64,000 nt of DNA, from assembly GCA_015065845.1 (NCBI GenBank), contig SVPQ01000008.1, forward strand, positions 1 through 64,000, written 5' to 3'. The notes under the pieces are model-generated. The model was not told the origin of the DNA. It searched no databases and saw nothing but the letters and a program-made list of their open reading frames with translations. Below are positions 25,782 through 56,229 of the stretch, piece by piece. A program made the translations under genes and the position numbers. The stretch comes from Oscillospiraceae bacterium. GTDB taxonomy: Bacteria; Bacillota; Clostridia; Oscillospirales; Acutalibacteraceae. How positions within the stretch are numbered: the stretch's first letter is position 1; every line of letters begins with the position of its first letter.

Positions 25782-26274
25782 TTGCCAGTATGCAAGTGTG
25801 CAAGTGGCAAGGAATCAGGAATGAGGAACTAGGAATTAGATATCGGACAAAGAAAAACCATGCTATCATTTTTAGTTTGCGAAAAACTTTAAATGATAGA
25901 ACGAGGTTATTTCTTCGTAGGGGATGAGCTGTGCTCTCCCACGACAACGCATTGTTTAATAGAATGCATTTGAAACGAAACTATAAACCATAATTTATTG
26001 CACTCGATTGGCTTATTATAATAAACAAACTAACTCCCACTACTACGGGCGACCAAAGGTCTGCCCCTACCATAGTGGGAGTTAATTTTTTGTTACATTT
26101 AAAGTTTATTATAAACTTAAAACGATAGAATATTTTGGTTTTTACTTACTTTACTAGCCAACTAGCCATACCAGCCACACTAGCAACTAGTACAATTGCC
26201 AACGCAGTTTGCCTAATTCCTATTTCCTAACCCCTAACACCTAACACCTATTTCCTTGAATTACGCATTCCGAA
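25782..26274. repeat. Composite 7-mer/hairpin element C1 at a convergent junction
   Basis: A 493-bp gap with no gene. In order it shows 7-mer runs (AGTGTGC, GGAACTA types, 25785-25840), and a CTATCATTT...AAATGATAG hairpin (about 25862-25899). Next are a GGGGATGAGC..GCTCTCCC segment and the core nested hairpin at 26031-26084. The outer stem of the core is TAACTCCCACT/AGTGGGAGTTA and the inner is GGGCGACC/GGTCTGCCC. Then comes an AT-rich segment with ATAGAATATTTTGG, ACTAGCC-type 7-mers (about 26148-26200), and CCTAACA/CCGAATT-type 7-mers up to the stop codon of the minus-strand gene. Much of it is nearly identical to element C2. Confidence 0.85.
26031..26084. terminator. Core nested hairpin of element C1
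   Basis: An 11-bp outer stem encloses a second stem. TTAATTTTTTG follows on the plus strand, and a T-rich stretch follows on the minus strand, so it could act in both directions between the convergent genes. Confidence 0.6.
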
Positions 26275-27567
26275 TTAAATCAAGCTCTCATACATTTCAA
26301 TTTTCTTTCCGCCTCGTGCAAGATATTCTTTGTAGAGTTGTTTCTTTCGCTCGTCTGTATATTCATAAGACCAAAGATTGTTTATCCCCTGAAAATCTTC
26401 AAATATTTCGTCAGGGTAAACTTTAAATTCGCCTGATTTATATGGTAAATCAATTTCAACTGTACCGTTTGAAGCGATAAAGAGATATTGGGCAATATCT
26501 GTCATTACGCGTGTTGCTTCATAGCGTGGTAAATCGCCATCGTACATAATTTGTGTTGATGGAACGAGTGCAACTTCAGAATTTGTCATTCTGTAAAAGT
26601 TCGGAGTTGTACCAAAATGTGCGTGGTGTGCCGACTGCATAATTTCGCACTTTAAATATCCGTTCTTATATCGCTCTTCTAAAATATAACTTTCTTCGTG
26701 ACCTGCATCCCCCGGGAAGCAGACCTTTGTATTTTCAGCCGTCATCATTAAAACAACAGAAGAATCATTATAATTTTCATTGGATTTCGGGAACACATCC
26801 TCGTGAGAGCAAAGGACATCAAATTTTAAATTCCTTATGTAGAAGGCTTCACCCGAATGAAGTGTGTAAACGGGTATATCAGGTCGTTTCTTTATGGCAT
26901 TTCTGAACTGCTCAACATAGCCCTTACCCGCACCCATCCAATTATGTGCATCTCTGTGGTCAAATGTCGGAAAATTGAAGTAAAGACCTTCAATAATTAC
27001 ATCGTCTGACTGGTAGAGTAAAAAGTTTTTGAACTGTGTTATGTGGTCATCGTGACCGTGACTGAAAAACCAACCCGCAATTCTGATTTTTTCACCCTCC
27101 GGTGTGCGTTCTCTTAAAAATGCGTGTATTCTTTCATCATCACGACAAGAATAAGTGTGTGCACTATCTATAATGAAGAAAGAGCCATCACACGCACGGA
27201 TAATATAACACATACCACAATCAATAAGAGAATGGTCAATTTCATACTGCCAAAGAGTTGTTTTAGTTTTTCTTTCTAAATTCTCACGCATTTTGAATTC
27301 GGGAAGATTTTTATTATTTTCTAAAACTGCTCTTACAGTATTATCACATGGGTAATAAGAACTGAAAATAAGATTTACTCCGTTTTCAAATACAGTTGTG
27401 AGATTATCTTCAATATCTGTTTTATAAACTTCACTATAACCTTGTGATTTTATTTCTTCTAAGTGAGAAAGATATTCTTCTTTTTCTACATTTTCAAAAA
27501 GCCAAAGCTTTGATGAATACGCAGAATCATATTCTGATACAGTTTTATTTTTCATTAACGGAATCAT
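26275..27567 (-). CDS. MBL-fold metallohydrolase
   Basis: A 430-residue cytoplasmic protein with a metallo-beta-lactamase fold core at about 125-380. The metal motif is SHGHDDH (HxHxDH), with VCFPGDAGHEE (later Asp) and SAHHAHFG. An N-terminal ~120-residue region is unassigned. ATG at 27567 has AAGGTG six bases upstream; an in-frame GTG nine bases earlier belongs to that site. It is the last gene of a tight four-gene operon (gaps of 14, 2 and 12 bp with the chosen starts). Its TAA stop opens a 7-mer repeat (TAATTCGGAATGCG read on the minus strand). The substrate is unknown. Confidence 0.75.
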   Translation of the reverse strand: MIPLMKNKTVSEYDSAYSSKLWLFENVEKEEYLSHLEEIKSQGYSEVYKTDIEDNLTTVFENGVNLIFSSYYPCDNTVRAVLENNKNLPEFKMRENLERKTKTTLWQYEIDHSLIDCGMCYIIRACDGSFFIIDSAHTYSCRDDERIHAFLRERTPEGEKIRIAGWFFSHGHDDHITQFKNFLLYQSDDVIIEGLYFNFPTFDHRDAHNWMGAGKGYVEQFRNAIKKRPDIPVYTLHSGEAFYIRNLKFDVLCSHEDVFPKSNENYNDSSVVLMMTAENTKVCFPGDAGHEESYILEERYKNGYLKCEIMQSAHHAHFGTTPNFYRMTNSEVALVPSTQIMYDGDLPRYEATRVMTDIAQYLFIASNGTVEIDLPYKSGEFKVYPDEIFEDFQGINNLWSYEYTDERKKQLYKEYLARGGKKIEMYESLI

Positions 27568-27581
27568 AAATAACACCTTGA

Positions 27582-29213
27582 TTATGGTTGTTTTGTCATT
27601 GGAATTGCTTCATTTACGTGTTCAATAGTAAGATAATTGTTTCTTTCAGCATAAGCCCATTTCATATTGAAGCAAGGAATAATTGCGTCAAGTGGTATGT
27701 AAAGCTGAGTGTTTTCACCACGATAAACTTTTGCAGGGAGTGTAACTTCACCATCATTTGTGACTGCAATATTACTCCCCTCAGTAAATGTAGCAGTTTT
27801 TCCGTAGATACCTAAAGTTACTTTGCCCTCTTCTTTTTTTACATCTGCACCAATTGCAGTGAACATAACAGCGAGTGGTGAGAACCACATACCGTCTTTG
27901 AATTCAGGAATTTGTTCCCTTTCACTAAGACCTAAACCTAAACCTTTATAGAAAGTTCTTGTTCTTCTTTTAAAAATAGGTGCTAAAGCTATTGGGTAAA
28001 TACAGTCATTCTTTTTATCTATAATACACTGGTCAATAACTCTGCCATCTTCAACTACTTCCGAAGTGAGAATTACTTTATCTTTAAATACTTCAACAAT
28101 GGCAACAGTTGAAATCTGTTCTTCACAAGGGTAATGCGCCGCGTGCCATACCTTGTGGCAAGACATTGTGCCCGGTGGGTTACTATTACTGTTACCTAAT
28201 TCATAGTGAATAGTTCCCTCAGATGGTTTATCAAATAACTGTTCATTTTTTATAGGGAATGTTCTTGCAAAGTTGTGCTCGTGACCTGCAAAAAGAACAT
28301 CCATTTTTTCAATACCTTCACGCATCATAGGGAAACCATCGTCATTACTGAGTTCAGGCCCTGCATAATACATCGGGAAGTGGTAAGAACCAAATTTCCA
28401 TACTCTGTCGGTAGAGTCAATATCTTCAATCAACCAGTCATTTACTTTTTCAGGCTCATTTACACCGATAACATTAAAGTGAGCATTACCATAATTAAAT
28501 GAATAGTTTTCGGTTTCCCAGCCTTTCGGACCATTGAATGGGTAAGAACCTCTGAACTGCTTACCGAAAAACTCTGCAGGTTCAGAGTAATATCTGCCTA
28601 TACCATTTTTGTAGTCTGCAAAACCACGGTTATCGTGGTTACCTAAAGTCATCATAAATGGTATATGTTCAACAACACCTTTAAGACCTGAAAAAGCACC
28701 GTTCCATTGAACCTCGTGCTGACCGCAGTCGGTGTTGTCACCTGCAGTAAGAATAAATTTAATATCTGGATTTTCTTCTAAAACTTTATTTAAAACTGCA
28801 TTGAAACTACTGTAATCGGGCAAATCGTGTGGTTGACCTGACTGCTGGTCAGAAACGCACATAAATTTGAAACTTTCGGCATTTTCTTCTTCAGTAGTAA
28901 AGTAATATTCTTCGCTTCTGTAATTCTCATTACCAACGGTGTAAAAATATTTAGTCCCTGGTTTTAAGTTAACCATATCCGCCCAGAACATATTACTTTC
29001 ATCTATATCGCTTTTGAAGTAATCTGTTGTTGCATCATATTTCGTTAAATCAGTTTTACCGTCTTCTCTGACTAATGCGTAACCACTTGTAACATCAACT
29101 GATGTACGCCAGGTAACTGTCATAGAAGTTTTAGCGTCACCTTTGATGCTAATAAAAATATGGTCAGGTTGAGGAGTGCTTCCCCTTGCTGGTTTTACTT
29201 TTAATTCACTCAT
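27582..29213 (-). CDS. Purple-acid-phosphatase-like metallophosphoesterase without signal peptide
   Basis: A 543-residue protein. An N-terminal Fn3-like domain typical of purple acid phosphatases (about 15-110) is followed by a calcineurin-type phosphoesterase domain with VSDQQ, AGDNTDCG, LGNHDNRG, SYHFPMY and AGHEHNFAR. The last ~100 residues (DGMWFSPLAVMFTAIGADV ... YIPLDAI) look like a copper-amine-oxidase N-like, cell-wall-associated domain. Such architecture is usually secreted, but no signal peptide or membrane segment exists; the ATG at 29213 with GGAAG upstream is well placed. It sits between the MBL-fold and AlaX-like genes. Confidence 0.8.
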   Translation of the reverse strand: MSELKVKPARGSTPQPDHIFISIKGDAKTSMTVTWRTSVDVTSGYALVREDGKTDLTKYDATTDYFKSDIDESNMFWADMVNLKPGTKYFYTVGNENYRSEEYYFTTEEENAESFKFMCVSDQQSGQPHDLPDYSSFNAVLNKVLEENPDIKFILTAGDNTDCGQHEVQWNGAFSGLKGVVEHIPFMMTLGNHDNRGFADYKNGIGRYYSEPAEFFGKQFRGSYPFNGPKGWETENYSFNYGNAHFNVIGVNEPEKVNDWLIEDIDSTDRVWKFGSYHFPMYYAGPELSNDDGFPMMREGIEKMDVLFAGHEHNFARTFPIKNEQLFDKPSEGTIHYELGNSNSNPPGTMSCHKVWHAAHYPCEEQISTVAIVEVFKDKVILTSEVVEDGRVIDQCIIDKKNDCIYPIALAPIFKRRTRTFYKGLGLGLSEREQIPEFKDGMWFSPLAVMFTAIGADVKKEEGKVTLGIYGKTATFTEGSNIAVTNDGEVTLPAKVYRGENTQLYIPLDAIIPCFNMKWAYAERNNYLTIEHVNEAIPMTKQP

Positions 29214-29215
29214 AT

Positions 29216-30370
29216 TTACACTTCCTTAAAGAAATCAATTATATTCTGTTTAGTTGTTGTGGCTTTGCCCTGAATCATTCCATCCCTGCCGCCGCCACGA
29301 CCATTAAGTTTTTGTGAAATTTCATTTCTCAATGCGTTCATATCCTGTGATTTTGATGCTATTACAAATGAATAGCCATTTTCGTCTTCCCCTGAAAATA
29401 CTGCACTGTATTTCTCAGTTTTTTCTGCGCCGAAATTTACTACTTCACGCATCATATCCGCATCGTATCCATCAGTAATTAACACTAATGAACCATTTAT
29501 ATCTTTTAAATTTTCTTTATCTCTGTTTGCAACAGATAATCTGTACTCATAAAATTTACGGCGTTCATCACTTAAATCGTTGTAGAATTTTTCTGTTGCG
29601 GTAAAAATCTCGTGTTGTTTTACAGAGAGTAAATTTGAAATGCCTAAAGCGTTTTTATACTTTTCTCTGTAATCTTTTAAAGCGAGGCTACCCGCTTTCA
29701 TAACAATTCTGACACCGCCACGGTGTTTCATAAAATCGAGTAATTTTATAACACCGACTTCGCCCGATTTTTTAACATGCGGTGCACAACACGCACAAAC
29801 ATCAACACCATCAATTTCTACTATTCTTACATTTTCTGTAAGTTCCAGTTTACTACGATAATCAAGATTTTTCAACTCTTTTTCATCAGGAAAATATGTT
29901 TTAAAATCAAGATTTTTGTAAATCGCTTCGTTTGCTTCGTCTTCAATTTCATCTAACTGTTCGCGGGTTAATTCGCCATTAAAATCAATTGTAATATATT
30001 CTTCATCCATATGGAAACCGACATTGACAAAACCGTATTTTCTATGTACAAGACCTGAAACTATATGTTCACCCGAATGGTTCTGCATTCTTGAAAATCT
30101 CAGAGTCCAGTCTATTTTACAGGAATACTCTGTCCCCTCATTTACCGCTTTTTTTGTTTTATGAATAATTTCACCGTTTTCTTCCTGAACATCAAAAACA
30201 AAAATATCGCCTATATAACCTGAGTCAGATTTCTGTCCGCCACCTTCTGGAAAAAAGGCTGTTTTATCTAATATTACGGCATAAAAGCCATCTCTTTTTT
30301 CACAAGAGATAGCTTCCGCATTAAATTCTTTTATATAACTGTCTTTATAATATAATTGTTGAGTTTTCAT
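29216..30370 (-). CDS. Alanyl-tRNA editing protein, AlaX type with DHHA1 domain
   Basis: A trans-editing enzyme of the AlaRS second-additional-domain family that clears mischarged Ser/Gly-tRNA-Ala. Motifs are FFPEGGGQKSDSG, the metal site NHSGEHIVSG and CACCAPHVKKSGEVG. A C-terminal DHHA1 domain ends in GRGGGRDGMIQGK. Length is 384 residues. ATG at 30370 has AGGTGA five bases upstream; the in-frame GTG at 30379 is within that sequence. The next gene starts 2 bp after the stop. Confidence 0.88.
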   Translation of the reverse strand: MKTQQLYYKDSYIKEFNAEAISCEKRDGFYAVILDKTAFFPEGGGQKSDSGYIGDIFVFDVQEENGEIIHKTKKAVNEGTEYSCKIDWTLRFSRMQNHSGEHIVSGLVHRKYGFVNVGFHMDEEYITIDFNGELTREQLDEIEDEANEAIYKNLDFKTYFPDEKELKNLDYRSKLELTENVRIVEIDGVDVCACCAPHVKKSGEVGVIKLLDFMKHRGGVRIVMKAGSLALKDYREKYKNALGISNLLSVKQHEIFTATEKFYNDLSDERRKFYEYRLSVANRDKENLKDINGSLVLITDGYDADMMREVVNFGAEKTEKYSAVFSGEDENGYSFVIASKSQDMNALRNEISQKLNGRGGGRDGMIQGKATTTKQNIIDFFKEV

Positions 30371-30382
30371 TTTTATCACCTG

Positions 30383-31078
30383 TTATGAAACGAACAATGA
30401 TGATGCCATTAAGAATTGTGCACCATAATAAAGTGCGTGGTTCACAACAACATTCACCCTTGTATTTTTGTTTTCGCAGAAATAAATCTGTGCTAAGACA
30501 CCATCTGACGCAACAAATAATACCATACCTACAACGCGTAAAACTGAGAACAATTCGAAATTATTTTCAATTGCTACAGCCACTGCTACACCGGTTGTAA
30601 ATGCTAAAACTGATGTATAAACTACTGAAATAAGTTTAGATGAGCCAAAATTTGCTTTCATTGTTTTTTCAGTAAACCAACAACTTACAGGACCAAACAC
30701 TATGCCTATAATACCGCAAATTATAGTAAGAGTAGAAACTCCGTAAGTAATAAACATAGCCCCTGAATAGAAAATATGACCTATTAAAAAGCTTATAAAT
30801 CCAGCCTTTAAAAGACCGTTTTTTTCTGTGGGGAATATATATTTTGCATCGAGCCATATATCTCCAAGAAGACCGCACACACAACCCGCAAAGAAAAGCA
30901 AAGCCAATTCTAAAGAACAACTCTGATTTTCGTAATACGCTGCAAGTGCGGTTAAAATCATAAAGCAACTTGTTGTAGTTTTAAAGAACAAAACTCTCAA
31001 AGATACTTGTGGTCTTCTCTGAACTAAAAACAATACTAAGTTAATAATTCCCAACGCTAAACAGATATAAAACAACAT
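30383..31078 (-). CDS. YhhN-family integral membrane protein (lysoplasmalogenase-like)
   Basis: A 231-residue protein of about eight hydrophobic segments. The family signature is visible: CGLLGDIWLDAKY followed by GLLKAGFISFLIGHIFY. Characterised members hydrolyse the vinyl-ether bond of lysoplasmalogens; clostridia make plasmalogens, so the role fits but is inferred. ATG at 31078 with AAGGGG upstream; an in-frame TTG six bases earlier is less likely. First gene of the four-gene operon, with its own promoter and operator-like palindrome upstream. Confidence 0.78.
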   Translation of the reverse strand: MLFYICLALGIINLVLFLVQRRPQVSLRVLFFKTTTSCFMILTALAAYYENQSCSLELALLFFAGCVCGLLGDIWLDAKYIFPTEKNGLLKAGFISFLIGHIFYSGAMFITYGVSTLTIICGIIGIVFGPVSCWFTEKTMKANFGSSKLISVVYTSVLAFTTGVAVAVAIENNFELFSVLRVVGMVLFVASDGVLAQIYFCENKNTRVNVVVNHALYYGAQFLMASSLFVS

Positions 31079-31105
31079 AAGCAAATTCCCCTTTTTTACT
31101 CAAAG

Positions 31106-31119
31106 TGAGTGTTTACTCA
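31106..31119. promoter_or_regulatory. TetR-like operator palindrome ahead of the YhhN operon
   Basis: TGAGT-GTTT-ACTCA, with an additional TTTACTCAA direct copy 17 bp away (31095-31103 and 31112-31120), lies just downstream of the -10 of the operon promoter. The form resembles TetR-family sites. No TetR gene is in the window. Confidence 0.45.
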
Positions 31120-31148
31120 ATTCTAACACATTGTAGTATAAAAATCAA
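31120..31148 (-). promoter_or_regulatory. Sigma-A promoter of the YhhN operon
   Basis: On the minus strand TTGATT (31148-31143), a 17-bp spacer and TAGAAT (31125-31120). Confidence 0.65.
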
Positions 31149-31198
31149 TCATATTTATTAAGAACAAATTAAATTTTCCAAATTATAGTATTATTCTA

Positions 31199-31239
31199 TT
31201 GATTTATCTTTTATATTGTTGTAAAATTTTACAATAATA
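31199..31239 (+). promoter_or_regulatory. Promoter with palindrome over the -10, DUF218 gene
   Basis: TTGATT (31199-31204), a 17-bp spacer and TAAAAT (31222-31227). A 26-bp near-perfect palindrome, TATTGTTGTAAAA / TTTTACAATAATA with one mismatch (31214-31239), covers the -10 and the start region. It is a strong repressor-site candidate. Confidence 0.65.
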
Positions 31240-31263
31240 CAATTTATAGAGGATTTTTTTATT

Positions 31264-31974
31264 ATGGAATTCAAAAGAATAAAAAACAAAGAAAACAAAC
31301 TCAAAAAGTTTATATCTTTAGCACTTATTGTCGGTGTTATTTTAGCACAGATTCCAATTCTTATCAACGCTTATATTTATGAATATGCAAGTAAATATGT
31401 ATTAACTGTCGAGGAAACAAAAGACTATAGTGTAGATTGTGTTTTGGTTCTTGGTGCAGGTGTAAGAAACGGTTCACCAACACCTATTCTACAAGAAAGA
31501 ATTTTAAGAAGCACTGAAATTTTTGACACCGGTTGCACCGACAGAATTTTAATGAGTGGTGACCACGGCAGAGAAGATTATGATGAAGTTAATACTATGA
31601 AGGATTTTGCAACAGATAACAGTGATGTTCTTGCAACAAATATTTTAATGGACCACGCGGGTTTTTCAACTTATGAGTCAATGTACAGAGCAAAAGAAAT
31701 ATTCGAAGTAGACAGTTTGATTATTGTCACTCAGGAGTATCATTTATACAGAGCAATTTATGACGCAAGAAGATTAGGTCTTGAAGCGTATGGCGTTTGT
31801 GCAGATGGTTACTTCAACTTTTCTCTTACAAAAGAACTTTATAACGATTCAAGAGAGTTTTTAGCAAGAGTCAAAGATTTCTTCTGGTGTATAATAAAAC
31901 CAGAACCGACATATTTAGGCGAGGTTATTCCTATTTCTTCACCTGGTGAAGCAACTGACGACAAAATTGTTTAA
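31264..31974 (+). CDS. DUF218 (SanA/ElyC/YdcF-like) protein
   Basis: A 236-residue protein with one N-terminal membrane anchor (about 17-37) and an extracytoplasmic DUF218 domain. Motifs are DCVLVLGAGVRNGSPTPIL, RILMSGDHG, DHAGFSTYESMYRAKEIF and VTQEYHLYRAIY. Gram-negative relatives SanA and ElyC affect envelope integrity and peptidoglycan or lipid-carrier metabolism; here only an envelope role can be inferred. AGAGGA precedes the ATG at a long spacing. The next gene starts 17 bp downstream. Confidence 0.82.
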   Translation: MEFKRIKNKENKLKKFISLALIVGVILAQIPILINAYIYEYASKYVLTVEETKDYSVDCVLVLGAGVRNGSPTPILQERILRSTEIFDTGCTDRILMSGDHGREDYDEVNTMKDFATDNSDVLATNILMDHAGFSTYESMYRAKEIFEVDSLIIVTQEYHLYRAIYDARRLGLEAYGVCADGYFNFSLTKELYNDSREFLARVKDFFWCIIKPEPTYLGEVIPISSPGEATDDKIV

Positions 31975-31991
31975 TTTAAAGAGAGAGTTCT

Positions 31992-33548
31992 ATGGATTTT
32001 GATATTATTGTAATTGGTGCAGGTCTTGGCGGTCTTACTGCTGCCGCTTGTGCCACAAAAGAAGGTAAACGGGTTTTAGTTTTAGAAAAAGGTCTTGCAC
32101 CCGGTGGTAGTGCAACGAGTTTCACCCGTGGCAGATTTGAATTCGAAGCATCTTTACACGCACTTTGTGGTTACTCTAAATCGCAGGGTGTTGGTGATGT
32201 GCGCATTATTTTTGACGAGCTTGGTATTACCGAAAAAATTGAGTGGTGTCAGCCAAAAAACGCTTTCAGAATAATAACCAAATCTAAAAATGGCGAAAGA
32301 ATTGACGCAACACTTCCTTTTGGAATTGAAAAATTTATAAACGCAATAGAAGAATATGTTCCTAACAGTAAAGAGTCACTTACAAAACTTTTTGATTTAG
32401 CAGAAAACAGTGTAAATGCATTAAATCATCTTTGTTCAGTAGATGAAAAAATTAATATGGCATTTGCTAAAGGTCTTTTAAAGGATTACGGCGACTTTGT
32501 AAGGACTGCACCTTACTCTGTAAACCGCGTTTTTAAAGCACTCGAAATCCCACAAAGAGCTATTGAAATTTTATCTGGTATATGGTGTTTACTTGGCGTT
32601 GATTGTGACCGATTAAGTTTTACACAGTACATTACATTACTTTACTCATATATTCAGTTCGGTGCGTTTGTACCAAAAGAAAGAAGCAACGAAATAAGTC
32701 TTGCTATCGCAGGATTTATTGAAGATAACAGAAGTCAGATTCGCTACAACTCACCTGTAACAAGAATTATTTTTGAAAAAGGTCAGGCAAAAGGCGTTAT
32801 ACTTAAAAATGGTGAAAAAATCTTTTGTGACCATATTATTGCCAACTGCTCACCTACTGATGTATTTACAAAAATGATGAAAACAAATGAAGTACCTGTA
32901 AGTGCTGTAAAAAGAACAAATGCAAGAACTTTCGGTGCAAGAGGTGCAACAATCTATTTAGGTCTTAACCGCTCTGCAAGTGATTTAGGAATTGAAGATT
33001 ACACCACTGTTATTACTGAAACTTCTGACTCATCTGTTCAGTACAATTTAATGAGAACTTTAAACAGTAACAAAATGTGCATTGTAAGTTGCCTTAATAA
33101 TGCAAACCCTGGTTGTTCACCAAAAGGCACCTGCATTTTAACATTCACTACGCTTTTTACAGATAACTGCTGGGGTAATGTTGAACCTAATAATTATTTT
33201 AACGAAAAAGATAACTTTGCAAAAAGAATTATAAATTTTTATGAAGAGTCAACAGGAATTAAAATAAGTGACTTTATTGAAGAAATTGAAATTGCAACAC
33301 CACTCACTTTTGCAAGATATATAAACACACCTCAAGGTGTAATTTATGGTTATTCGTGTGATGAATGGGACAGTGTGCTCTCGCGTTTTATGACAGAAGA
33401 AAGTGACTCTGACACAAAAGGACTGCGTTTCTGTGGCGGTTGGGGCACTCAGAACGCAGGGTTTAGTTCTGCTATTTCTTCTGGCAGAAACACTGCTTAC
33501 GCTACACTTTACGATATTGAAAACAGTAACAAGGGGGAAAACAAATGA
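31992..33548 (+). CDS. CrtI/retinol-saturase-like FAD oxidoreductase
   Basis: A 518-residue flavoprotein of the phytoene desaturase/retinol saturase superfamily. The FAD-binding Rossmann motif is VIGAGLGGLTAAA at the N terminus, followed by LEKGLAPGGSATSF. The C-terminal FAD motif is LRFCGGWGTQNAGFSSAISSGR. No carotenoid genes are nearby, so a lipid or polyprenyl double bond is a likelier substrate (inference). AGAGAG ribosome binding site. Its stop overlaps the ATG of the following reductase by 4 bp (ATGA), so the two are translationally coupled and probably functional partners. Confidence 0.82.
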   Translation: MDFDIIVIGAGLGGLTAAACATKEGKRVLVLEKGLAPGGSATSFTRGRFEFEASLHALCGYSKSQGVGDVRIIFDELGITEKIEWCQPKNAFRIITKSKNGERIDATLPFGIEKFINAIEEYVPNSKESLTKLFDLAENSVNALNHLCSVDEKINMAFAKGLLKDYGDFVRTAPYSVNRVFKALEIPQRAIEILSGIWCLLGVDCDRLSFTQYITLLYSYIQFGAFVPKERSNEISLAIAGFIEDNRSQIRYNSPVTRIIFEKGQAKGVILKNGEKIFCDHIIANCSPTDVFTKMMKTNEVPVSAVKRTNARTFGARGATIYLGLNRSASDLGIEDYTTVITETSDSSVQYNLMRTLNSNKMCIVSCLNNANPGCSPKGTCILTFTTLFTDNCWGNVEPNNYFNEKDNFAKRIINFYEESTGIKISDFIEEIEIATPLTFARYINTPQGVIYGYSCDEWDSVLSRFMTEESDSDTKGLRFCGGWGTQNAGFSSAISSGRNTAYATLYDIENSNKGENK

Positions 33549-34750: not shown

Positions 34751-34763
34751 AGCGTAAGGTCAC
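34725..34763 (+). terminator. Perfect 17-bp hairpin straddling the stop codon
   Basis: GTGACCTTACGCTTCAA and its exact complement around a 5-base loop. The left arm encodes the last codons of the reductase, and the TGA stop lies at 34748-34750. No T-tract follows. Confidence 0.7.
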
Positions 34764-35056
34764 AGTTGCTAGTAGCTAGTTGTCAGTGGTCAGTTCAGTT
34801 GCAAGTTGCAAGTGTGCAAGTGTGGCTAGGGGTTAGGTGTTAGGTGTTAGGTGTTAGTGAATAGTAATTAGGAATACGCAAAAAAACTCAGTTAATTGAC
34901 CGAAATCAATTAACTGAGTTTTGTTTAATTTTATTAAATTTTAAAGTAATACGAATCAGCGTTTTACAAGATATCTCTTCACTATTCTCTCTTACTTCTT
35001 ACCTTAATCAGCCGTCTCCTGTCTTATCCTCTGTCTTAGTTCTAATTGTCTTCGTT
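34764..35056. repeat. 7-mer repeat region E5 with terminator at a convergent junction
   Basis: Units such as AGTTGCA, AGTGTGC and TTAGGTG (four TTAGGTG/TTAGTG-type units near 34832-34860) occupy about 34764-34875. A bona fide hairpin terminator follows (34883-34922), then AT-rich sequence (34923-35056) in which I see no gene. Confidence 0.8.
34883..34922. terminator. 17-bp terminator hairpin, bidirectional
   Basis: AAAACTCAGTTAATTGA and its exact complement with loop CCGAAA. It is preceded by A-rich and followed by T-rich sequence, so it can work from both sides. Confidence 0.85.
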
Positions 35057-45527: not shown

Positions 45528-45534
45528 GATAGTA

Positions 45535-46075: not shown

Positions 46076-46227
46076 GATTCAGGAATCAGGAACCAGGAAC
46101 TAGGAATTAGGTTTTATAAAATAAAATGCATTCTATCATTTAAAGTTTCTTCGTAAACTAAATATGATAGAATGCATATTTTTTTATTCGTTCCTATTTC
46201 CTATTTCCTGATTCCTAATTCCTGAAA
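46076..46227. repeat. Armed-hairpin 7-mer element R6 at a convergent junction
   Basis: The simplest member of the intergenic element family. A left arm of 7-mers (TCAGGAATCAGGAACCAGG..., 46079-46111) and a right arm of inverted 7-mers (CCTATTTCCTATTTCC..., 46191-46225) flank a central hairpin (46126-46177). The hairpin has a 14-bp perfect base ATGCATTCTATCAT and is followed by a T-tract. The arms are reverse complements of each other with variation between units. It fills the gap between the prepilin and ABC ATPase genes. Confidence 0.85.
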
Positions 46228-48824: not shown

Positions 48825-48862
48825 CTTTAAAACCTCACTATATATTTTTTAGTTGTGTACGA

Positions 48863-48891
48863 ATTATACACTATATTCATAAAAATTGCAA
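48863..48891 (-). promoter_or_regulatory. Sigma-A promoter of the amino-acid importer operon
   Basis: On the minus strand TTGCAA (48891-48886), a 17-bp spacer and a perfect TATAAT (48868-48863). Confidence 0.8.
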
Positions 48892-49006
48892 TAGATTTTT
48901 ACAAAAATGTAATTTTATGCATCTATTTAAAATTATTAAAAATTTAATATACATTTCTGATATTTTGTAGTATAATAGGTGCAGAATAAATTGAATGGAG
49001 TTCATT

Positions 49007-50110
49007 ATGAAAAAGTTTCTTTCTCTTTTACTTGCAGTTGTTATAACTGTAATTTCTGCCCCGCTTTGCTTTGCGGCAGTTTATGAAAATTTCAATTACG
49101 AAGTAAATAGTGACAACACAGTAACAATTACCGGTTACAATAATCTGCACCTTAGTACTGTTACTATTCCTGAAACTATTGATGGTAAAACCGTTACCGC
49201 TATAGGTGACAATGTTTTTAAAGGTAAATCTTCTTTAAAAACAATCAAAATACCAAACTCCATTATATCTATTGGTAATTATGCTTTTTACAGTTGCAAA
49301 AACTTAAAGTCTGTAACGCTCGGCAGTGGTGTTAAAACTTTAGGTGCGTACTGTTTTAATCTTTGCGAATCTCTTGAAAGCATTCACCTTAATAACATTG
49401 AAACAATCGGCGAACTTGCTTTTTTCGGTTGTGAAAAACTCACTACACTTAACTGTGGTAATTCGCTTACAGAAATTCCTGAAAGAGCATTTTCAGACTG
49501 TGAACTTTTAAGTAGTATAACATTCCCGAAAACATCTTTGAAATCAATTGGTGACTACGCTTTCGCCAACTGTATAAGCATCACTTCACTTTCACTCCCG
49601 AATTCAGTAAAATCAATTGGTCGCAGTGCTTTTTCAAATAATCAGGCACTCGAAAGTCTTACCCTCCCGCGTGGCACTCTCACAATTGGCGGTTATGCAT
49701 TTGAAAACTGTCCGTTACTTCTTAATGTTACAATTCCTAAAAACACTGTTTCTGTTGGAAGATATGCTTTTGCTTTGAGAGACTTAAATACATTTACTCA
49801 CGCACAGGGTTTTAGTTTTTCTTGCTATTCAACCTGTTCTTCTGCGGTAATTTATGCTTCTGAAGCGGGTGTTGACCCGTATCTTATAGATTTGAAACAA
49901 ACTGTTAAATTCGGAGATGTAAACGGTGACGGCAAAGTTACAACTGAAGATGCAAGAATTGTTTTAAGAGCACACGCAAAACTCGGTGAATTAGATGAAA
50001 GCAGAATGTTTTACATTGATGTAAACTTAGACGGCGTTTACGATAGCAACGACGCAAGAATTATTTTAAGAAAAGCGATAATGCAAGAAACACCTCCGGC
50101 AGAAGCCTGA
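49007..50110 (+). CDS. BspA-type leucine-rich repeat protein with C-terminal dockerin
   Basis: A 367-residue secreted protein. A signal peptide (MKKFLSLLLAVVITVISAPLCFA) precedes BspA/LRR_5 repeats of about 23 residues (for example SLKTIKIPNSIISIGNYAF; about 55-250). A linker leads to a type I dockerin at about 300-360, with two calcium-binding segments DVNGDGKVTTEDARIVLR and DVNLDGVYDSNDARIILR. Dockerins bind cohesins, so the protein may attach to a scaffoldin or surface cohesin not in this window. The ATG at 49007 follows GGAG; an ATG at 48995 overlaps that sequence. The stop lies inside an inverted repeat. Confidence 0.87.
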   Translation: MKKFLSLLLAVVITVISAPLCFAAVYENFNYEVNSDNTVTITGYNNLHLSTVTIPETIDGKTVTAIGDNVFKGKSSLKTIKIPNSIISIGNYAFYSCKNLKSVTLGSGVKTLGAYCFNLCESLESIHLNNIETIGELAFFGCEKLTTLNCGNSLTEIPERAFSDCELLSSITFPKTSLKSIGDYAFANCISITSLSLPNSVKSIGRSAFSNNQALESLTLPRGTLTIGGYAFENCPLLLNVTIPKNTVSVGRYAFALRDLNTFTHAQGFSFSCYSTCSSAVIYASEAGVDPYLIDLKQTVKFGDVNGDGKVTTEDARIVLRAHAKLGELDESRMFYIDVNLDGVYDSNDARIILRKAIMQETPPAEA

Positions 50111-50121
50111 GGTGTTTCTTG
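50084..50121 (+). terminator. Hairpin straddling the dockerin gene stop codon
   Basis: A 13-bp perfect stem (CAAGAAACACCTC) plus inner pairs. The left arm encodes the last residues (QETPP), and the TGA at 50108-50110 is in the right side of the loop region. Confidence 0.7.
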
Positions 50122-50714
50122 TAATGCAGAATGCAAAGTGCAAAATGCAGAATTTTGGAAACGCTTCGCGTTTGATTATAATTATTATTGAATAACAAAA
50201 ACTACATCCTATCATTTGTACCAGTGGTCAGGAATTAGGAAACAGGAATTAGGAACTAGATATCGTGTAAAAAAATCGGTCTTTCATTTTTAGTTTACGA
50301 AAAACTATAAATGATAGAATGAGACTGTTTCTTCGTAGGGGATGAGCTTTGCTCTCCCGCGACAACGCGTTGTTTAATAGAATGCATTTGAAACGAAACT
50401 ATTAACCATAATTTATTACACTCGATTGGGTTTTATTAATAAAAAAACTAACTCCCACTACTACGGGCGACCAAAGGTCTGCCCCTACGATTGTGGGAGT
50501 TAATTTTTTGTTTCATTTAAAGTTTATTGTAAACTGAAAACGATAGAATATTTTGGTTTTTATTTACTTTACTAGCAACTAGCAACTAGCCATACTAGCC
50601 ACACTAGCCAACCAGCCATACTAGCAACTAAACTGACAACTTACTCACTGACTACTGCTTCCTGTTTCCTAATTCCTAGTTCCTAATTCCTAGTTCCTAA
50701 TTCCTGAGCAAGCA
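50122..50714. repeat. Composite 7-mer/hairpin element C2 at a convergent junction
   Basis: The longest non-coding gap, with no gene seen. It begins with AGAATGC/AAAGTGC 7-mers and the 27-nt palindromic module (50157-50183). The element proper runs from AACTACATCC at 50210 to CCTGAG at 50706. Its order is 7-mer arm, CTTTCATTTTTAGTTTACG...ATGATAGAATG hairpin, GGGGATGAGC-TTT-GCTCTCCC, core nested hairpin (50449-50502), ATAGAATATTTTGG, ACTAGCC-type 7-mers, and inverted TTCCTAA-type arm. Large parts match element C1 almost base for base. Confidence 0.85.
50449..50502. terminator. Core nested hairpin of element C2
   Basis: Outer stem TAACTCCCAC / GTGGGAGTTA, inner stem GGGCGACC / GGTCTGCCC, preceded by a run of A and followed by ATTTTTTG, so it may work from both sides. 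Confidence 0.6.
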
Positions 50715-50739
50715 TCAGCGTTTCACGCTGGAGCTTGCT
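50707..50739 (-). terminator. Hairpin straddling the stop codon of the large LRR gene
   Basis: AGCAAGC / GCTTGCT and CAGCG / CGCTG stems around a 5-base loop, with a 2-base internal bulge. The TGA stop (50717-50715 on the minus strand) lies within it. Confidence 0.65.
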
Positions 50740-53700
50740 TTATAACTACTAGCAACCTTACCATTAACCGCTTTAACAGTGTAACGGTATTTTACACCTT
50801 TCTTTGCAGATTTGTCGGTGTAAGATTTTGAAGTAGATTTTGCAGTTTTTATGCCTTTCCAACTGCTCCATTTCTTAGTCTTGGTGTTATATTCACTTCT
50901 ATAAATTTTGTAGCTTGCTGCACCTGTGATTTGTGTCCAACTTACTTTTACACCATTACTTACTGCTTTAACAGTTGTTTTTGGTTGTGCTAAATAAAGG
51001 AGTGATGAACTTGATTTATAGGTACTTGCAGTTTTTCCGTTTACCGCTTTTACTGTGTATTTATATTTCACACCGCTCTTAGCTTTTGTATCTGTCCATG
51101 AAACAGTTGAACCTTTGGTAATTGTTTTTACGCTCTTCCAACCAGTCCATTTACCATTTTTGTATTCAGCGCGGTAAACTTTGTAACCTGTTGCACCTGT
51201 AATTTTATTCCAACTAACTTTTACACCACTTGCATTGTTTGCAATTTTTACTGTTGGTTGTGCTAGGAATAAAATGCTCGAAGAATTTTTAATACCGCTT
51301 TTTGTATCGCCGTTAAATGCTTTTACGGTGTAGATATACTTTGTACCACTCTTTGCAGTTACATCTACATAACTTGTTTTAGTTACAGTACCACAAGTTT
51401 TCCAACTACCATATTTTTTAGTTTTTGTGCTGTATGTTTTGCGGTAAACTTTGTAACTTTCTGCACCGTCTATTGCTTTCCAGGTAACCTTTACACCGGT
51501 TGCACTGTTTTTAACTGTTACTACTGGAGTTGCAAGTGTAGTACTGAGTTTTGGTATTTCTTCACCTTTTTCAATTACTTTATTACATACAGAACAAACT
51601 TTATCTCCTGTGTAACCTACTTCATTTTCTGTTGCATCTTTTTTACCTACAACAGTTTCTTTGTGACCTGTTGCGGAAATAAGTTCAGACTTTGCATCAT
51701 AACATACTGTACAAACATAAGTTTTTTCACCTTGTGTTGTGCAAGTCGGTTCTGTTGTAACTGAACCACTGTTCCACTTGTGACCTACAGTTTTAATCAC
51801 ACTACCTTTTGCAGTTGTTGTTTTACATACTGAACAATATGTATCACCTGTGTAACCATCTGCTGTGCAAGTTGCGTCTTTTTTGTTTATTACACTTGTT
51901 GTGTGACCTTTAGCTTTAATAGTTTCTTGTGCTTTTGTTACCGTGCCACATACAGAACATTTCTTACCATCCGTAAGACCTGTAGCAGTACAAGTTGCCG
52001 CTTTACCGGTTATTGTTACGTCTTTGTGTCCTGTTGCCGGGATTGTTTCTGTGTAACTATCACCGCAAGAACAAGTAAATGTTTTTGTGCCTGATTCTGT
52101 ACAAGTTGGTTGTTTTGTTACTGTACTTGTATGATTATGGGTGTGTGTAACCTTTTCTATAAATGTAAAACCATTTTCGTTTGCATAAGTTTCTGCTGCT
52201 GTTCCTTTTTCACCGTAGATTGTGAATCCTTCTACTTTTTCAGCTTCATAAGATTCACTAATCCAACGATAACCAAAAGCAAAATACCCAATCTCTGTTA
52301 CACTACTTGGAATAGTTATACTTTTAAGAGATGTACCGTAAAAAGCCTCGTTATCTATAATCGTTGTGCCATCAGGAATTGTTATATCTGTTATTGATGA
52401 ACAATTCACGAAAGCCCATTCACCTATTTCTGTTACACCATTTGGTATTACTATATTTGTTAAAGAACTACAATTTTTAAAAGTAGCATATTCTATACTT
52501 GTTAAACACTCTGGTAAAACAACATTTACAAGCAACGGACAATCGGAAAAAGCACGGGCACCTATACTTGTTACACTTTCAGGGATTGTTACATTCGTAA
52601 GTGAGCCGCACCACTCAAAAGCACCGATACCTATACTCGTCACACCATCTGGAATTGTAACACTTGTCACCCCCGAATAACCGAAAGCGACATTTGCGAT
52701 ACATTTAGTTCCATTTTTAATTGTATACTCACCCGAAAGTGAATTTTTAACATCAATTAAATGATTATTTATATATAAAACTCCATTATCCCATTTGCTT
52801 GAGTCGTTATATAGTGCAGTGCCATAAAAAGCACTCTCCCCTATGCTCGTTACAGTATCTGGAATTGTAATTGAGTTCAAACTTCTACAATTACCAAAAG
52901 CATCACTAGCTATACTCTGCACTCCTTCAGGTATGACAACCGCTTCACTCCTACCCTTTGGACATTGCAATAAACTACTCATATCTTTAGTAAACAGCAT
53001 ACCGTCAACACTCTTGAAATATGCATTATCTTCAGCTACATATATAGATTTAATGCTCTCTCCTGAAAAATCACCTACTTCTTTTATAGTTTTTGGAAGC
53101 ATAACCGTTTCTACCATTTCATTATGTGCAAATGTACTAGAACCCAAAGAAACAACTTTATATCCATCAATACTTTCAGGAATGACGACATTCTTGTCAT
53201 AACCATTATAATCATATATTTCTAACATTGTTAACTTTTCATCAAATATTTCATGTTCCCATAATTTACCTTTGCACTCTTTGCAATAATTGTTTTCGAA
53301 ATCATGAATATGTTCAATAAATGTGAACCCATTTTCTGTTGCATAGTATTCAGCTTCTGAACCTTTTACTCCACTAATCTCCAATTCAGATACTTTAGCA
53401 TATACTTCTTCATAGTTTTCATCAAGATAGCAATAATAACCAAAAACCTCGTCACCGATATAATTTACGCTTTCTGGAATTGTTACAGAAACTATACCCG
53501 GACAATCATAAAAAGCTCTATCTCCTATATAAGAAACCCCATCTTCAATTTTTAATGTAGTTAATCCTGATTCTTCAAATGCATGGCTACCAATATAATC
53601 TACACTACCGGGAATTGTTATTGAATCTAAATCAGTCCAATAAAACGCACTATCACCAATATCTTCTATACTATTAGGGATTATTACTGAAGATAAATTT

Positions 53701-55289
53701 TCGCAACCATCAAATGCATAGTCTCCTATGCTTGTTACACTATCAGGAATTGTTACCGAAGTCAAACCTGTACAATATGAAAAAGCACTCTCTCCAATAC
53801 TAGTTACAGGTTTACCATTATATTCACTAGGAATGGTTAAATCTCCAACGAAAAAACTTTTAGCTCCACCAGTCAACATATAAGACTCGCCAGAAACATA
53901 ATCTTCAAAAGTAAAAAACGAATCTAAATTATCAAAATCCACCTCTTTAAAATCAAAGCCATTACTTATAGCATAGTTTTCAGCCGCTGAATTTTTCACA
54001 CCATAAATTTTAAACTGCGAATCTTTAACCTCGACTTCACCATATTCATCATACTCAAATTTATAACCTAAAGCATGTTCACCTATACTTGTTACAGATT
54101 CAGGTACCACTATTTCATTTAAATTATACGCGCCTAAAAACGCGTCATCCTGAATAATACTTACACCGTCACATATAATTATTGATTGTAGTAAATAACA
54201 GTCCTCAAAAGCAGATTCACCAATAATTTTTACACTACCGGGAATTGTTACACTTGTAAGGGATGAACAATCAGAAAATGCACCAACACCTATACTTGTA
54301 ACACTATCAGGTATTGTTACGCTTGTAAGTGAGGAGCAATAATAAAAAACACGATCACCTATGCTTGTAACACTATCAGGTATTACTACTGATTCTAAAT
54401 TTTTACTGGAGTGAAATGCATCTTCGGCTATTGTTTTTGTACCTGGTTTTATAATATAATCTCCTGAAATTTCAATGTTGGCAACTATCAGATGATTACC
54501 TATATAAAGCACATTATTATCCCAATTATTTATATTTTTATATAATACAGTACCATAAAATGCACCATCACCTATACTTGTAACACTATCAGGTATTGTT
54601 ACACTTGTAAGGGATGAACAACAATAAAATGCATTATCACCTATGCTTATAACACTATCAGGTATTGTTATATTCACAAGTGATTTACAATATATAAATG
54701 CACTATAACCTATACTCGTCACACTGTCCGGTATTCGATAACTTTCATTAGATTTACCTTTCGGATACAAAACAAGTTCAGTTTTTTCCGAATTAAATAA
54801 AACGCCATCAACAACTGAATATCTTTGATTGCTTTGGCTAACCTTCATCTCACTGAGTTTAAAACAATCAGAAAATATAGATGGATTTATTTCGTCTATA
54901 CTTTCAGGAACTGTTACAACTTCCAAGCCACTACATCCTTCAAATGCCTCATAATTAATGTATGACACACTATCAGGTATAACTATTGACGAAATATTAA
55001 CGCAATTATAAAAAGCTCCCTCACCTACTGGGATATCCTCCGGATCATCTGAAACTTCATATACTCCTGAAATACCAGTAACGGGAAGTCCGTTGTATTC
55101 ACCCGGAATAACTATTTCTCCACTGGCATTTTCATTGCAATCCACTACCGAATAACTTTTACAGTCCTCATTAAGTTCAAATGTCAAATCATCAACACTT
55201 GCCGCACTCGCCTCAATTGTCATTGGTGCAGACGCACATATTCCAACAGCAAAAACAAATGCTAAAATTAAACTTAAAACTTTTTTCAT
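50715..55289 (-). CDS. Giant BspA-type leucine-rich repeat surface protein
   Basis: A 1524-residue secreted protein. A signal peptide (1-29, ending ASA) is followed by more than 30 LRR_5 repeats of the form SVTIPDSVTSIGDGAFYGC in two blocks (about 35-640 and 650-1010). Next is a Cys-rich region with four repeats of about 45 residues, each with CxxC pairs (TCTESGTKTFTCSCGDSY, KCSVCGTVT, YCSVCKTTT, VCTVCYDAK; about 1020-1220). Three Fn3-like domains with Tyr-Lys-Val-Tyr-Arg motifs (about 1225-1524) end the protein. There is no sortase motif, so attachment is unclear. Start at 55289 with AGGAGG upstream. It has a consensus promoter and is divergent from an Xre regulator. Confidence 0.9.
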   Translation of the reverse strand: MKKVLSLILAFVFAVGICASAPMTIEASAASVDDLTFELNEDCKSYSVVDCNENASGEIVIPGEYNGLPVTGISGVYEVSDDPEDIPVGEGAFYNCVNISSIVIPDSVSYINYEAFEGCSGLEVVTVPESIDEINPSIFSDCFKLSEMKVSQSNQRYSVVDGVLFNSEKTELVLYPKGKSNESYRIPDSVTSIGYSAFIYCKSLVNITIPDSVISIGDNAFYCCSSLTSVTIPDSVTSIGDGAFYGTVLYKNINNWDNNVLYIGNHLIVANIEISGDYIIKPGTKTIAEDAFHSSKNLESVVIPDSVTSIGDRVFYYCSSLTSVTIPDSVTSIGVGAFSDCSSLTSVTIPGSVKIIGESAFEDCYLLQSIIICDGVSIIQDDAFLGAYNLNEIVVPESVTSIGEHALGYKFEYDEYGEVEVKDSQFKIYGVKNSAAENYAISNGFDFKEVDFDNLDSFFTFEDYVSGESYMLTGGAKSFFVGDLTIPSEYNGKPVTSIGESAFSYCTGLTSVTIPDSVTSIGDYAFDGCENLSSVIIPNSIEDIGDSAFYWTDLDSITIPGSVDYIGSHAFEESGLTTLKIEDGVSYIGDRAFYDCPGIVSVTIPESVNYIGDEVFGYYCYLDENYEEVYAKVSELEISGVKGSEAEYYATENGFTFIEHIHDFENNYCKECKGKLWEHEIFDEKLTMLEIYDYNGYDKNVVIPESIDGYKVVSLGSSTFAHNEMVETVMLPKTIKEVGDFSGESIKSIYVAEDNAYFKSVDGMLFTKDMSSLLQCPKGRSEAVVIPEGVQSIASDAFGNCRSLNSITIPDTVTSIGESAFYGTALYNDSSKWDNGVLYINNHLIDVKNSLSGEYTIKNGTKCIANVAFGYSGVTSVTIPDGVTSIGIGAFEWCGSLTNVTIPESVTSIGARAFSDCPLLVNVVLPECLTSIEYATFKNCSSLTNIVIPNGVTEIGEWAFVNCSSITDITIPDGTTIIDNEAFYGTSLKSITIPSSVTEIGYFAFGYRWISESYEAEKVEGFTIYGEKGTAAETYANENGFTFIEKVTHTHNHTSTVTKQPTCTESGTKTFTCSCGDSYTETIPATGHKDVTITGKAATCTATGLTDGKKCSVCGTVTKAQETIKAKGHTTSVINKKDATCTADGYTGDTYCSVCKTTTAKGSVIKTVGHKWNSGSVTTEPTCTTQGEKTYVCTVCYDAKSELISATGHKETVVGKKDATENEVGYTGDKVCSVCNKVIEKGEEIPKLSTTLATPVVTVKNSATGVKVTWKAIDGAESYKVYRKTYSTKTKKYGSWKTCGTVTKTSYVDVTAKSGTKYIYTVKAFNGDTKSGIKNSSSILFLAQPTVKIANNASGVKVSWNKITGATGYKVYRAEYKNGKWTGWKSVKTITKGSTVSWTDTKAKSGVKYKYTVKAVNGKTASTYKSSSSLLYLAQPKTTVKAVSNGVKVSWTQITGAASYKIYRSEYNTKTKKWSSWKGIKTAKSTSKSYTDKSAKKGVKYRYTVKAVNGKVASSYKASSSVKR

Positions 55290-55390
55290 ATTTCTTCCTC
55301 CTGAATTATAACTAGCATAATTACTGAACAACAGAAGAGAATATTATTAAAAATAATCTCCTCTATTGCCATAACCACACTTTAATTTGA

Positions 55391-55424
55391 ATTATAATAA
55401 AACTTTTGTAACTTGTCAAGTTAC
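55391..55424 (-). promoter_or_regulatory. Consensus promoter with palindromic operator, large LRR gene
   Basis: On the minus strand TTGACA (55419-55414), a 17-bp spacer and TATAAT (55396-55391), the best promoter in the window. The -35 lies inside a perfect palindrome GTAACTTG-T-CAAGTTAC (55408-55424). Read on the plus strand the palindrome gives TTGTCA, a possible -35 for the divergent Xre gene. Confidence 0.8.
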
Positions 55425-55498
55425 TTTTAACACTCTTAATGTTGTCGTAAAATAAGAAAATGTAAGTTATACTATTCTTAGATATACGAGGTGATTAA

Positions 55499-55732
55499 AT
55501 GCAAGAGCAAAATAAAAATGAATATAAACTTTTAGGCTTAAACATTGCGTATTATCGAAAAGCAAGAGGTTTGTCACAAAACGAATTAGCCGAAAAGGTC
55601 AATATAAGCAGAACTCACATGAGCAGAATTGAAACTGCTGAATGTGCTGTTTCTTTAGATGTTGTTTTTGACATTTGTCGCACTCTTAATATTTCAACAA
55701 AAGAGATTTTCGATTTCAGAGTAATCACCTGA
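55499..55732 (+). CDS. Xre-family HTH transcriptional regulator
   Basis: A 77-residue protein that is essentially one helix-turn-helix domain: GLNIAYYRKARGLSQNELAEKV and ISRTHMSRIETAE, then a short tail. Such small Xre proteins bind short palindromes as dimers. GAGGTGA lies 4 bases before the ATG. It is divergent from the giant LRR gene, whose promoter holds a 17-bp palindrome, so regulation of that gene and of itself is likely (inference). Confidence 0.88.
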   Translation: MQEQNKNEYKLLGLNIAYYRKARGLSQNELAEKVNISRTHMSRIETAECAVSLDVVFDICRTLNISTKEIFDFRVIT

Positions 55733-56229
55733 TGTAATAAAGCAAATTTAATAATTCTATAAAAAACTACATTCTATCATTTGTACCAATGGTCAGTAGT
55801 CAGGAATTAGGAACTAGGAACTAGGAAACAGGAAATAGGAAATAGATTATAAAATGCATTGCACTCGAATGGTTTATTGTAACATAAAAATAACTCCCAC
55901 TACTCGCGGGCGACCACAGGTCTGCCCCTACGATTGTGGGAGTTATTTTTTTGTTTCATTTAAAGTTTATTGTAAACTGAAAACGATAGAATATTTTGGT
56001 TTTTATTTACTTTACTAGCAACTAGCCAACTAGCCATACTAGCCACACTAGCAACTAAACTGACAACTGACTTACTAACAACTGACCACCGCACAAATGA
56101 TAGGATGATTTTTCTTTATCTGATATCTAATTCCTAGTTCCTGTTTCCTAATTCCTGACTACTGGCACAAATGAAAGAATGTAGTTTTATCTATACTTTA
56201 ATTCCGAATTCCGCATTACGCATTCCGAA
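55733..56229. repeat. Composite 7-mer/hairpin element C3 with terminal inverted repeats
   Basis: A 497-bp gap without a gene. The element spans 55765-56186 and ends in inverted repeats. The left begins AACTACATTCTATCATTTG and continues into AGGAATTAGGAACTAGGAAC 7-mers. The right ends in the reverse complement (GTTCCTAATTCC-type units, then CACAAATGAAAGAATGTAGTT). Inside are the core nested hairpin (55891-55945), ATAGAATATTTTGG and ACTAGCC-type 7-mers. TTCCGAATTCCGCATTACGC 7-mers then lead to the stop codon of the minus-strand ymxH-like gene. It is a shorter relative of C1 and C2. Confidence 0.88.
55891..55945. terminator. Core nested hairpin of element C3
   Basis: Outer stem TAACTCCCAC / GTGGGAGTTA; inner stem GGGCGACC / GGTCTGCCC with loop ACA. 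TTTTTTTG follows. Confidence 0.6.

Follow-up and report, generated by a model that had tools for sequence, protein, structure and literature searches.

Why heptanucleotide repeats, among them the STRR sequences of cyanobacteria, have units of seven and occur in so few lineages has long been a puzzle. Bidirectional intrinsic terminators, which two convergent genes share, consist of a stem with an A-run before and a T-run after it. Three further descriptions, seen here as excerpts of the respective papers, are relevant. TAACTGA arrays are classed as heptanucleotide long simple-sequence repeats (MacGregor 2015, PMC4679880, citing Mrazek 2007), and in Maribeggiatoa the TAACTGA sets lie mostly just upstream of start codons (PMC4679880). 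GTAG repetitive extragenic palindromes (REPs) are biased to gene 3' ends, in unidirectional as well as convergent pairs, and are associated with RAYTs; the REPtrons can be lost (Di Nocera 2013, PMC3733652). Finally, Porphyromonas gingivalis carries a miniature inverted-repeat transposable element (MITE) that bears a minisatellite (PMC4596501). Here we analyse intergenic elements made of period-7 arrays and hairpins in the first 64,000 nucleotides of contig SVPQ01000008.1 of an Oscillospiraceae bacterium (assembly GCA_015065845.1), an uncultured gut bacterium. This whole stretch is called the window below.

Our own gene calls place six convergent junctions in the window: 11522/11572, 25781/26275, 34750/35057, 46075/46228, 50110/50715 and 55732/56230, the last of which depends on a 77-aa open reading frame (ORF) matching HTH_3 (1.1e-12). 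Gene calls and array scoring agree with a first-pass annotation that five of the six carry degenerate period-7 arrays around one or more hairpins, and that 11522/11572 holds a plain hairpin only. The inverted arms which it reported for all five are clear at four; at 34751-35056 the left arm passes the detection threshold and the right one does not. Left arrays are G- and A-rich and, where a right arm is detectable, right arrays are C- and T-rich; Tandem Repeats Finder and a repeat finder both report the arrays and their inverted partners. We consider it probable (roughly 60%) that these are composite elements of gene 3' ends, with a terminator hairpin at the centre and slippage-prone heptamer arms that are tolerated. 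Anatomy, position, orientation, compensatory stems and kept positions with changed arms are read directly from the DNA.

Arrays, hairpins and their turnover

Arrays were scored by identity at lags 3-15, and genes were called with a simple codon-score caller, which is crude and may misplace starts. The sample of the bacterium's own genome (G000, 82% complete) covered 462,096 bases: the window, contig C36, C31 1-120000 and C51 33001-53000. At a strict threshold, lag 7 yielded 21 arrays in this sample (13 at convergent, 7 at co-directional and 1 at divergent junctions, none in genes), and one first-order Markov shuffle per sequence yielded none. Among other lags, 14, a multiple of 7, gave 14 arrays, while lags 6, 8, 12 and 15 gave 1 to 3 each. 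The working threshold returned 50 arrays, 2 of them within genes, against an average of 0.05 in 20 intergenic shuffles.

Read from the stop codon inward, a typical site consists of a heptamer array, a GC mini-hairpin linker (for example AAACGCTTCGCGTTT), an AT-rich spacer and a hairpin, followed by the mirror image. Where a junction has two arrays, the first has more G than C and the last more C than G, in 24 of 24 cases from G000 and G018, the relative used as second genome for junction counts. Arms within one junction match better (0.525) than arms of different junctions (0.408), 105 of 10,000 permutations reaching the observed mean. RNA folding against shuffles covered three of the five whole junctions: 46076-46227 folds as one long, continuous, in-register hairpin (-66.4 kcal/mol, z -13.4), and z reaches -11.1 for 55733-56229 and -3.6 for 34751-35056. 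Rfam gave no match above the gathering score in the window.

Two hairpin families occupy the centres. Exact copies of the first, CTATCATTT-loop-AAATGATAG, number 50, 60, 99, 11, 50 and 45 in six genomes of the genus (G000, G001, G011, G015, G018 and G021), with none in the other 34 of the 40 genomes and none for a reversed-pattern control. First copy sets of 213 and 128 were rich in chance coding matches, and dropping 113 of the 213 left 100 strict copies. In these, outer stem positions 8, 9, 11, 12 and 13 pair beyond all of 500 shuffles, each showing 17-39 double changes (position 8 fell within the arm by which copies were selected, positions 9-13 outside it); the observed pairing was reached by 16 of 500 shuffles at position 10 and by 83 of 500 at position 14. 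A run of at least four T is present on one strand in 60 copies, on the other in 63, and on both in 46, against 20.5 with shuffled flanks. The second family is a unit of about 105 bp, the GTGGGAGTT core, with 25 units in the G000 sequence examined. Three of them lie in the window, the core AACTCCCAC...GTGGGAGTT beginning at 26032, 50450 and 55892, so that three junctions do share a core, as first noticed; a terminator scan reports it on both strands at all three. Judged by their sequence, the central hairpins look like bidirectional intrinsic terminators.

The core ends in CCCCTAC in 25 of 26 aligned rows, the remaining row being one unit in the opposite orientation. Its minus strand holds a GTAG hairpin, GTAGGGGCAGACC-TTT-GGTCGCCC, whose tag lies within an internal loop of a larger stem. 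Among the named genomes scanned, two metagenome-assembled genomes contain the exact core: Clostridia bacterium RGIG6294 (sheep rectum) and Oscillospiraceae bacterium SIG596. An association of the core with leucine-rich repeat (LRR) genes (5 of 25 units against 25 of 362 junctions, P = 0.035) was weak and also explicable by duplication, and we did not retain it.

A search of up to 20 kb from each of 20 relatives found period-7 segments in 4 of the 10 additional genomes of the genus, and in none of the 10 genomes from other genera of the family or order. Longer stretches from eight genomes of the genus had arrays at 3 of 36 convergent, 3 of 268 co-directional and 2 of 37 divergent junctions. Three of these junctions had two arrays; two were without clear sign and one, G014 31841-32084, obeys the orientation rule and has the same plan around an unrelated hairpin. 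This last case suggests that the plan may extend beyond one repeat family.

Gene order around the window is partly conserved in G018, G011 and G001, and numbering the five array-bearing junctions 1 to 5 we compared the orthologous sites, junctions 1 and 3 by reading alignments; an automatic check reached junctions 2 and 4/5, in G018 only. In G018 the elements at junction 1 and at a joined junction 4/5 are smaller and the one at junction 3 is larger (about 270 against 152 nt); all three have arms and a CTATCATTT-type hairpin. At junction 2 the hairpin is present and the arms are weak, and the unit types of G018 are unlike those of the window. The automatic check counted no array at junction 2 and one at junction 4/5. 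Elsewhere, at C36:159066-159870, G018 aligns across the flanking genes and the two central hairpins, but it differs in the type of its left array and linker and lacks the right TTCCTAT array. The divergent junction C36:209718-210184 has inverted arms in G000, G018 and G011, in gaps of 467, 306 and 574 nt, and at C36:202627-202882 additional array layers are found in G011, and a single array in G018. Going by these alignments, element sites persist while arm types change at the orthologous junctions compared.

Some further observations concern the surroundings of the elements. In the window, a BspA-type LRR gene (PF13306) and a neighbouring helix-turn-helix (HTH) gene (50715-55331) are bracketed by the elements 50111-50714 and 55733-56229; the G018 counterpart has a single smaller element between the outer flanking genes, and neither the LRR nor the HTH gene. 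Other element-rich junctions are also synteny breaks. Immediately after the junction-1 core, locus L058 (G021:C72) carries a copy of the end of an RNase H gene, which may reflect a duplication or a faulty assembly; an empty-site comparison of junction 1 with G021, in which the alignment broke inside the core beside this gene end, was not used. At a divergent junction of another relative (G013:C1 28751-29403, loci L108 and L142) short heptamer arrays come after a long leader that may resemble a cobalamin riboswitch.

Placement, spread and proposed mechanism

In the G000 sample, arrays were found at 15 of 42 convergent, 15 of 273 co-directional and 2 of 43 divergent junctions; the window itself contributes 5 of 6, 3 of 34 and 0 of 7 (by subtraction, with the retrained gene model), so that arrays are not confined to its convergent junctions. 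Leaving out the 64-kb window, in which the finding arose, and retraining the gene model, 10 of 36 convergent, 12 of 239 co-directional and 2 of 36 divergent junctions carry arrays (convergent against co-directional, P = 9e-5), and the convergent excess persists per gene 3' end (P = 0.017). These figures favour selection of the elements as special boundaries of convergent gene pairs, as do gaps of at least 60 nt, counted separately because many co-directional gaps are tiny: both genomes together, window included, have arrays at 20 of 48 convergent, 29 of 178 co-directional and 2 of 82 divergent gaps (convergent against co-directional, P = 3e-4; co-directional against divergent, P = 8e-4). However, G018 shows 5 of 40 convergent, 14 of 272 co-directional and 0 of 40 divergent junctions with the window-orthologous stretch (P = 0.08 for convergent against co-directional) and 2 of 36, 14 of 256 and 0 of 35 once that stretch is left out, with no convergent excess. 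Pooled in the same way, the two genomes give 12 of 72, 26 of 495 and 2 of 71. Per junction, convergent sites then exceed co-directional (P = 0.0013) and divergent ones (P = 0.009), while co-directional and divergent sites do not differ (P = 0.56); per gene 3' end, the excess is not significant (12 of 144 against 26 of 495, P = 0.17). Two-armed elements, moreover, are found at co-directional and divergent junctions too. The preference for convergent sites that had been proposed thus stands for G000 without the window and for the core unit and is absent from G018, and we regard selection for convergent pairs as improbable. Placement from the stop codon outward is a better rule than convergence. 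In gaps of at least 60 nt of both genomes, lag-7 identity is 0.27-0.31 in coding ends and, in the first 20 nt past the stop codon, 0.40 at convergent and 0.356 at co-directional junctions; it does not rise within 60 nt of starts and is 0.33-0.35 at 60-120 nt before co-directional starts. In 9 of 14 (G018) and 6 of 15 (G000) co-directional array junctions, the first base of the array is no more than 10 nt from the upstream stop codon, and no array begins that close to the downstream start. The core unit, unlike the arrays, does favour convergent junctions: counted by hand from the unit table, with partial copies in C21 and C39 left out as too short, it sits at 12 convergent, 6 co-directional and 2 divergent junctions of G000 and twice at contig edges. 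Of its 18 convergent and co-directional junctions 12 are convergent (P = 1e-4), and 9 of 15 when the window is left out (P = 0.003), against a convergent share of 24% of the 3' ends in the 462-kb sample, which again speaks for convergent boundaries.

That the elements, core included, are non-autonomous mobile elements of MITE or REPIN-like type, moved by a transposase and surviving best past stop codons, is a tentative alternative, rather unlikely to us but the most substantial of those weighed. The long core copies do look spread: at separate sites they are nearly identical (92-93% over about 270 bp). The GTAG-tagged hairpin of the core resembles GTAG REPs, a second such hairpin being added in inverse orientation in the long copies, and GTAGGGG outnumbers its permuted word in the G000 sample (27 to 4) and in G018 (14 to 5). 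Element sites coincide with synteny breaks, and nested array-linker layers occur in G011. However, the Y1 transposase profile PF01797 has no match in G000 (82% complete) and is above the cut-off in 4 of 8 genomes, where the readable gene flanks carry a different repeat, GGGGACGG (on both sides at L076 and L080, upstream at L081 and downstream at L077). A RAYT as the mover is thus unsupported, and a search for a parent transposase, which covered the Y1 family, found none. The 604-base element of junction 4, used as query, matched no plasmid or phage, and the exact core is absent from viral contigs, in which none of 10 stretches with the hairpin pattern has arrays within 300 nt. Sites are conserved between species; the elements have long inverted arms, and the filled/empty comparisons gave no clean pair with a target duplication. 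Four of the long copies lie at 3' ends of LRR genes and may have been copied along with them; the junction 1 copy is not so placed. As to Rho, its profile PF07497 was found in 9 of 14 controls and in none of five genomes (G000, G001, G011, G018 and G021), one of which is 97% complete. TIGR00767 reached at best 73.4 bits, against a cut-off of 509, in seven genomes, including four of those five, and we take these matches to be related ATPases. With no detectable Rho, intrinsic terminators gain weight, and a reading of the C-rich exit arms as rut sites is set aside: although the 24 of 24 orientations do place C over G on the exit strand, arms acting as Rho-utilisation tracts for read-through transcripts, spaced by 7, are very hard to credit where Rho itself is not found, barring a divergent Rho. 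Beside the Y1 genes (about 250 aa) of L076, L080, L081 and L077, we also noted that the repeat adjoining their readable flanks, AGGGGACGGTTCT, is unrelated to the elements.

Composite 3'-end elements with tolerated arms, the reading that we prefer, would work as follows. At the centre a hairpin, of the CTATCATTT family, of the 105 bp GTGGGAGTT core or of another kind at some sites, would serve as an intrinsic terminator (on both strands in many copies) and halt transcription from one or both sides, which may be important in a genome without detectable Rho. The bidirectional boundary role first suggested is consistent with the terminator form, the compensatory changes, the T-runs on both strands and the missing Rho, and remains a prediction from sequence. 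On either side, often from the stop codon, would lie degenerate heptanucleotide arrays, often with small GC hairpin linkers and mirrored, G-rich on the left and C-rich on the right in two-array junctions. We infer termination itself, slippage and recombination as the process, and tolerance as the reason for the location: the arms would be simple-sequence DNA that grows, shrinks and is swapped, tolerated because it lies past the stop codon and away from starts, and some pressure or correction would keep them complementary.

Several points weigh against this. The spread of near-identical core copies is unexplained by tolerance, and over all gap lengths without the window the excess of convergent plus co-directional over divergent junctions is not significant (38 of 567 against 2 of 71, P = 0.30). 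Two single arrays contradict the orientation rule for the nearest stop codon (C31:12032-12062 and C36:51352-51372, the latter adjoining a small, possibly spurious ORF), several others cannot be assigned under it, and arms fail to match at several junctions. T-runs on both strands are limited to the 46 of 100 hairpins, and a consensus terminator scan missed the hairpin at 46133 and reported that at 34883 on one strand only. The hairpin copies are kin by descent, so that the shuffle test overstates their independence, and the compensatory changes may stem from quasi-palindrome correction instead of selection. Lastly, an efficient central terminator would leave no obvious use for arms that pair with each other in one RNA.

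A bolder and doubtful proposal is that of a stop-codon-anchored, orientation-locked 3'-end module in a Rho-less lineage, with hairpins held between species by compensatory change and whole arms swapped for other unit types, so that structure and strand bias would be kept and sequence not. If true, such a module would be a distinct class of bacterial transcription boundary, its arms being structured 3' untranslated regions or DNA cruciforms. If the arms are merely tolerated products of slippage, the elements would offer a tidy natural history of intergenic repeats. The heptamers have an address here, from the stop codon outward, as well as a strand and in many cases a mirrored counterpart; arm turnover can be followed in relatives that share the gene order, and two-way terminators could be mapped in a lineage without detectable Rho.

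Elements of the window

Junction 1, between a DUF3267 gene and the gene at 26275, is filled by an element at 25782-26274. It comprises a left arm of AGGAATC type with G over C (25810-25839, plus strand), a CTATCATTT hairpin (25863-25899), a core unit (25993-26102, plus strand) in which a terminator-like stem, ACTCCCAC/GTGGGAGT, encloses the inner hairpin resembling GTAG REPs, and a right arm (26212-26250, minus strand) with C over G on the plus strand. Junction 2 (34751-35056), whose right arm is under the detection threshold, has a left arm of TTAGGTG type (34824-34875, plus strand) and a 17-pair terminator-like hairpin (34883-34922), matched by the terminator scan on the plus strand. Junction 3 (46076-46227) folds in its entirety as one hairpin: the left arm (46076-46111, plus strand) begins immediately after the stop codon, the CTATCATTT hairpin (46133-46170), absent from the consensus terminator scan output, has an AT-rich stem and then a run of 7 T, and the right arm spans 46191-46223 (minus strand).

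The element of junction 4 (50111-50714) has LRR genes on either side. A first left array of AATGCAG type (50123-50153, plus strand) and the linker AAACGCTTCGCGTTT (50159-50173) are followed by a second left array of AGGAATT type (50230-50259, plus strand), a CTATCATTT-type hairpin (50281-50317), a core unit (50411-50520, plus strand) and right arms of ACTAGCC (50571-50630) and TTCCTAA type (50647-50705), both on the minus strand. Junction 5 (55733-56229), between the HTH gene and a PRC-barrel gene, has a left arm (55792-55845) and a core unit (55858-55963) on the plus strand, and on the minus strand a right arm (56117-56164) and an outermost array (56200-56231) that overlaps the stop codon of the gene at 56230.

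Co-directional junctions of the window also have arrays. Arrays of like kind occupy 10619-10832 (array 10752-10832) in the junction 10596-10895, and single arrays on the plus strand lie at 24393-24424, overlapping a stop codon, and at 25085-25109. The stretches 24389-24462 and 25074-25147 are near-identical (96%) leaders of two tandem DUF3267 genes, each carrying a heptamer array and a GC mini-hairpin a short way upstream of the start.

Comparison with known systems

No such element in Clostridia or rumen bacteria was present among the literature matches listed, from a search with most subscription journals outside it. The earlier statement that no named family of this form is known in clostridia holds to that extent, and the kinds of component are already known.

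The arrays are tandem 7-nt units beyond chance and outside genes, as in heptanucleotide long simple-sequence repeats. Going by the excerpts of PMC4679880, they share with the TAACTGA arrays intergenic 7-nt units, mixed unit types and a patchy taxonomic spread, and differ in their many unit types, inverted arms around a terminator hairpin, start at stop codons and fixed two-array orientation. The core fits the GTAG REP pattern of a tag beside a 6-13 bp stem with a short loop. As in the GTAG REPs and REPINs of the excerpted PMC3733652, GTAG stands beside a short GC stem-loop, the sites are 3' ends and convergent pairs, and inverse pairs occur in the long copies; unlike in GTAG REPs, the hairpin sits inside a longer terminator stem, and heptamer arms are unmentioned in that excerpt. 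An associated RAYT (REPtron) was not seen either, PF01797 being absent from G000 (82% complete) and the Y1 genes of relatives being flanked by another repeat where readable. Like the P. gingivalis MITE (PMC4596501, excerpt), the elements are short, repeated and palindromic, with internal tandem repeats; unlike MITEs, they have no transposase partner found in the Y1 family searched and no target duplication was seen. With bidirectional intrinsic terminators they share a stem with an A-run before and a T-run after it, but here the primary sequence is conserved among dozens of copies in a genome, and large arms of repeats are added. All together, heptanucleotide repeats, GTAG REPs and bidirectional terminators are the closest kinds, and the elements look less like a new kind of system than like a local variant of repeat types already known in bacteria.

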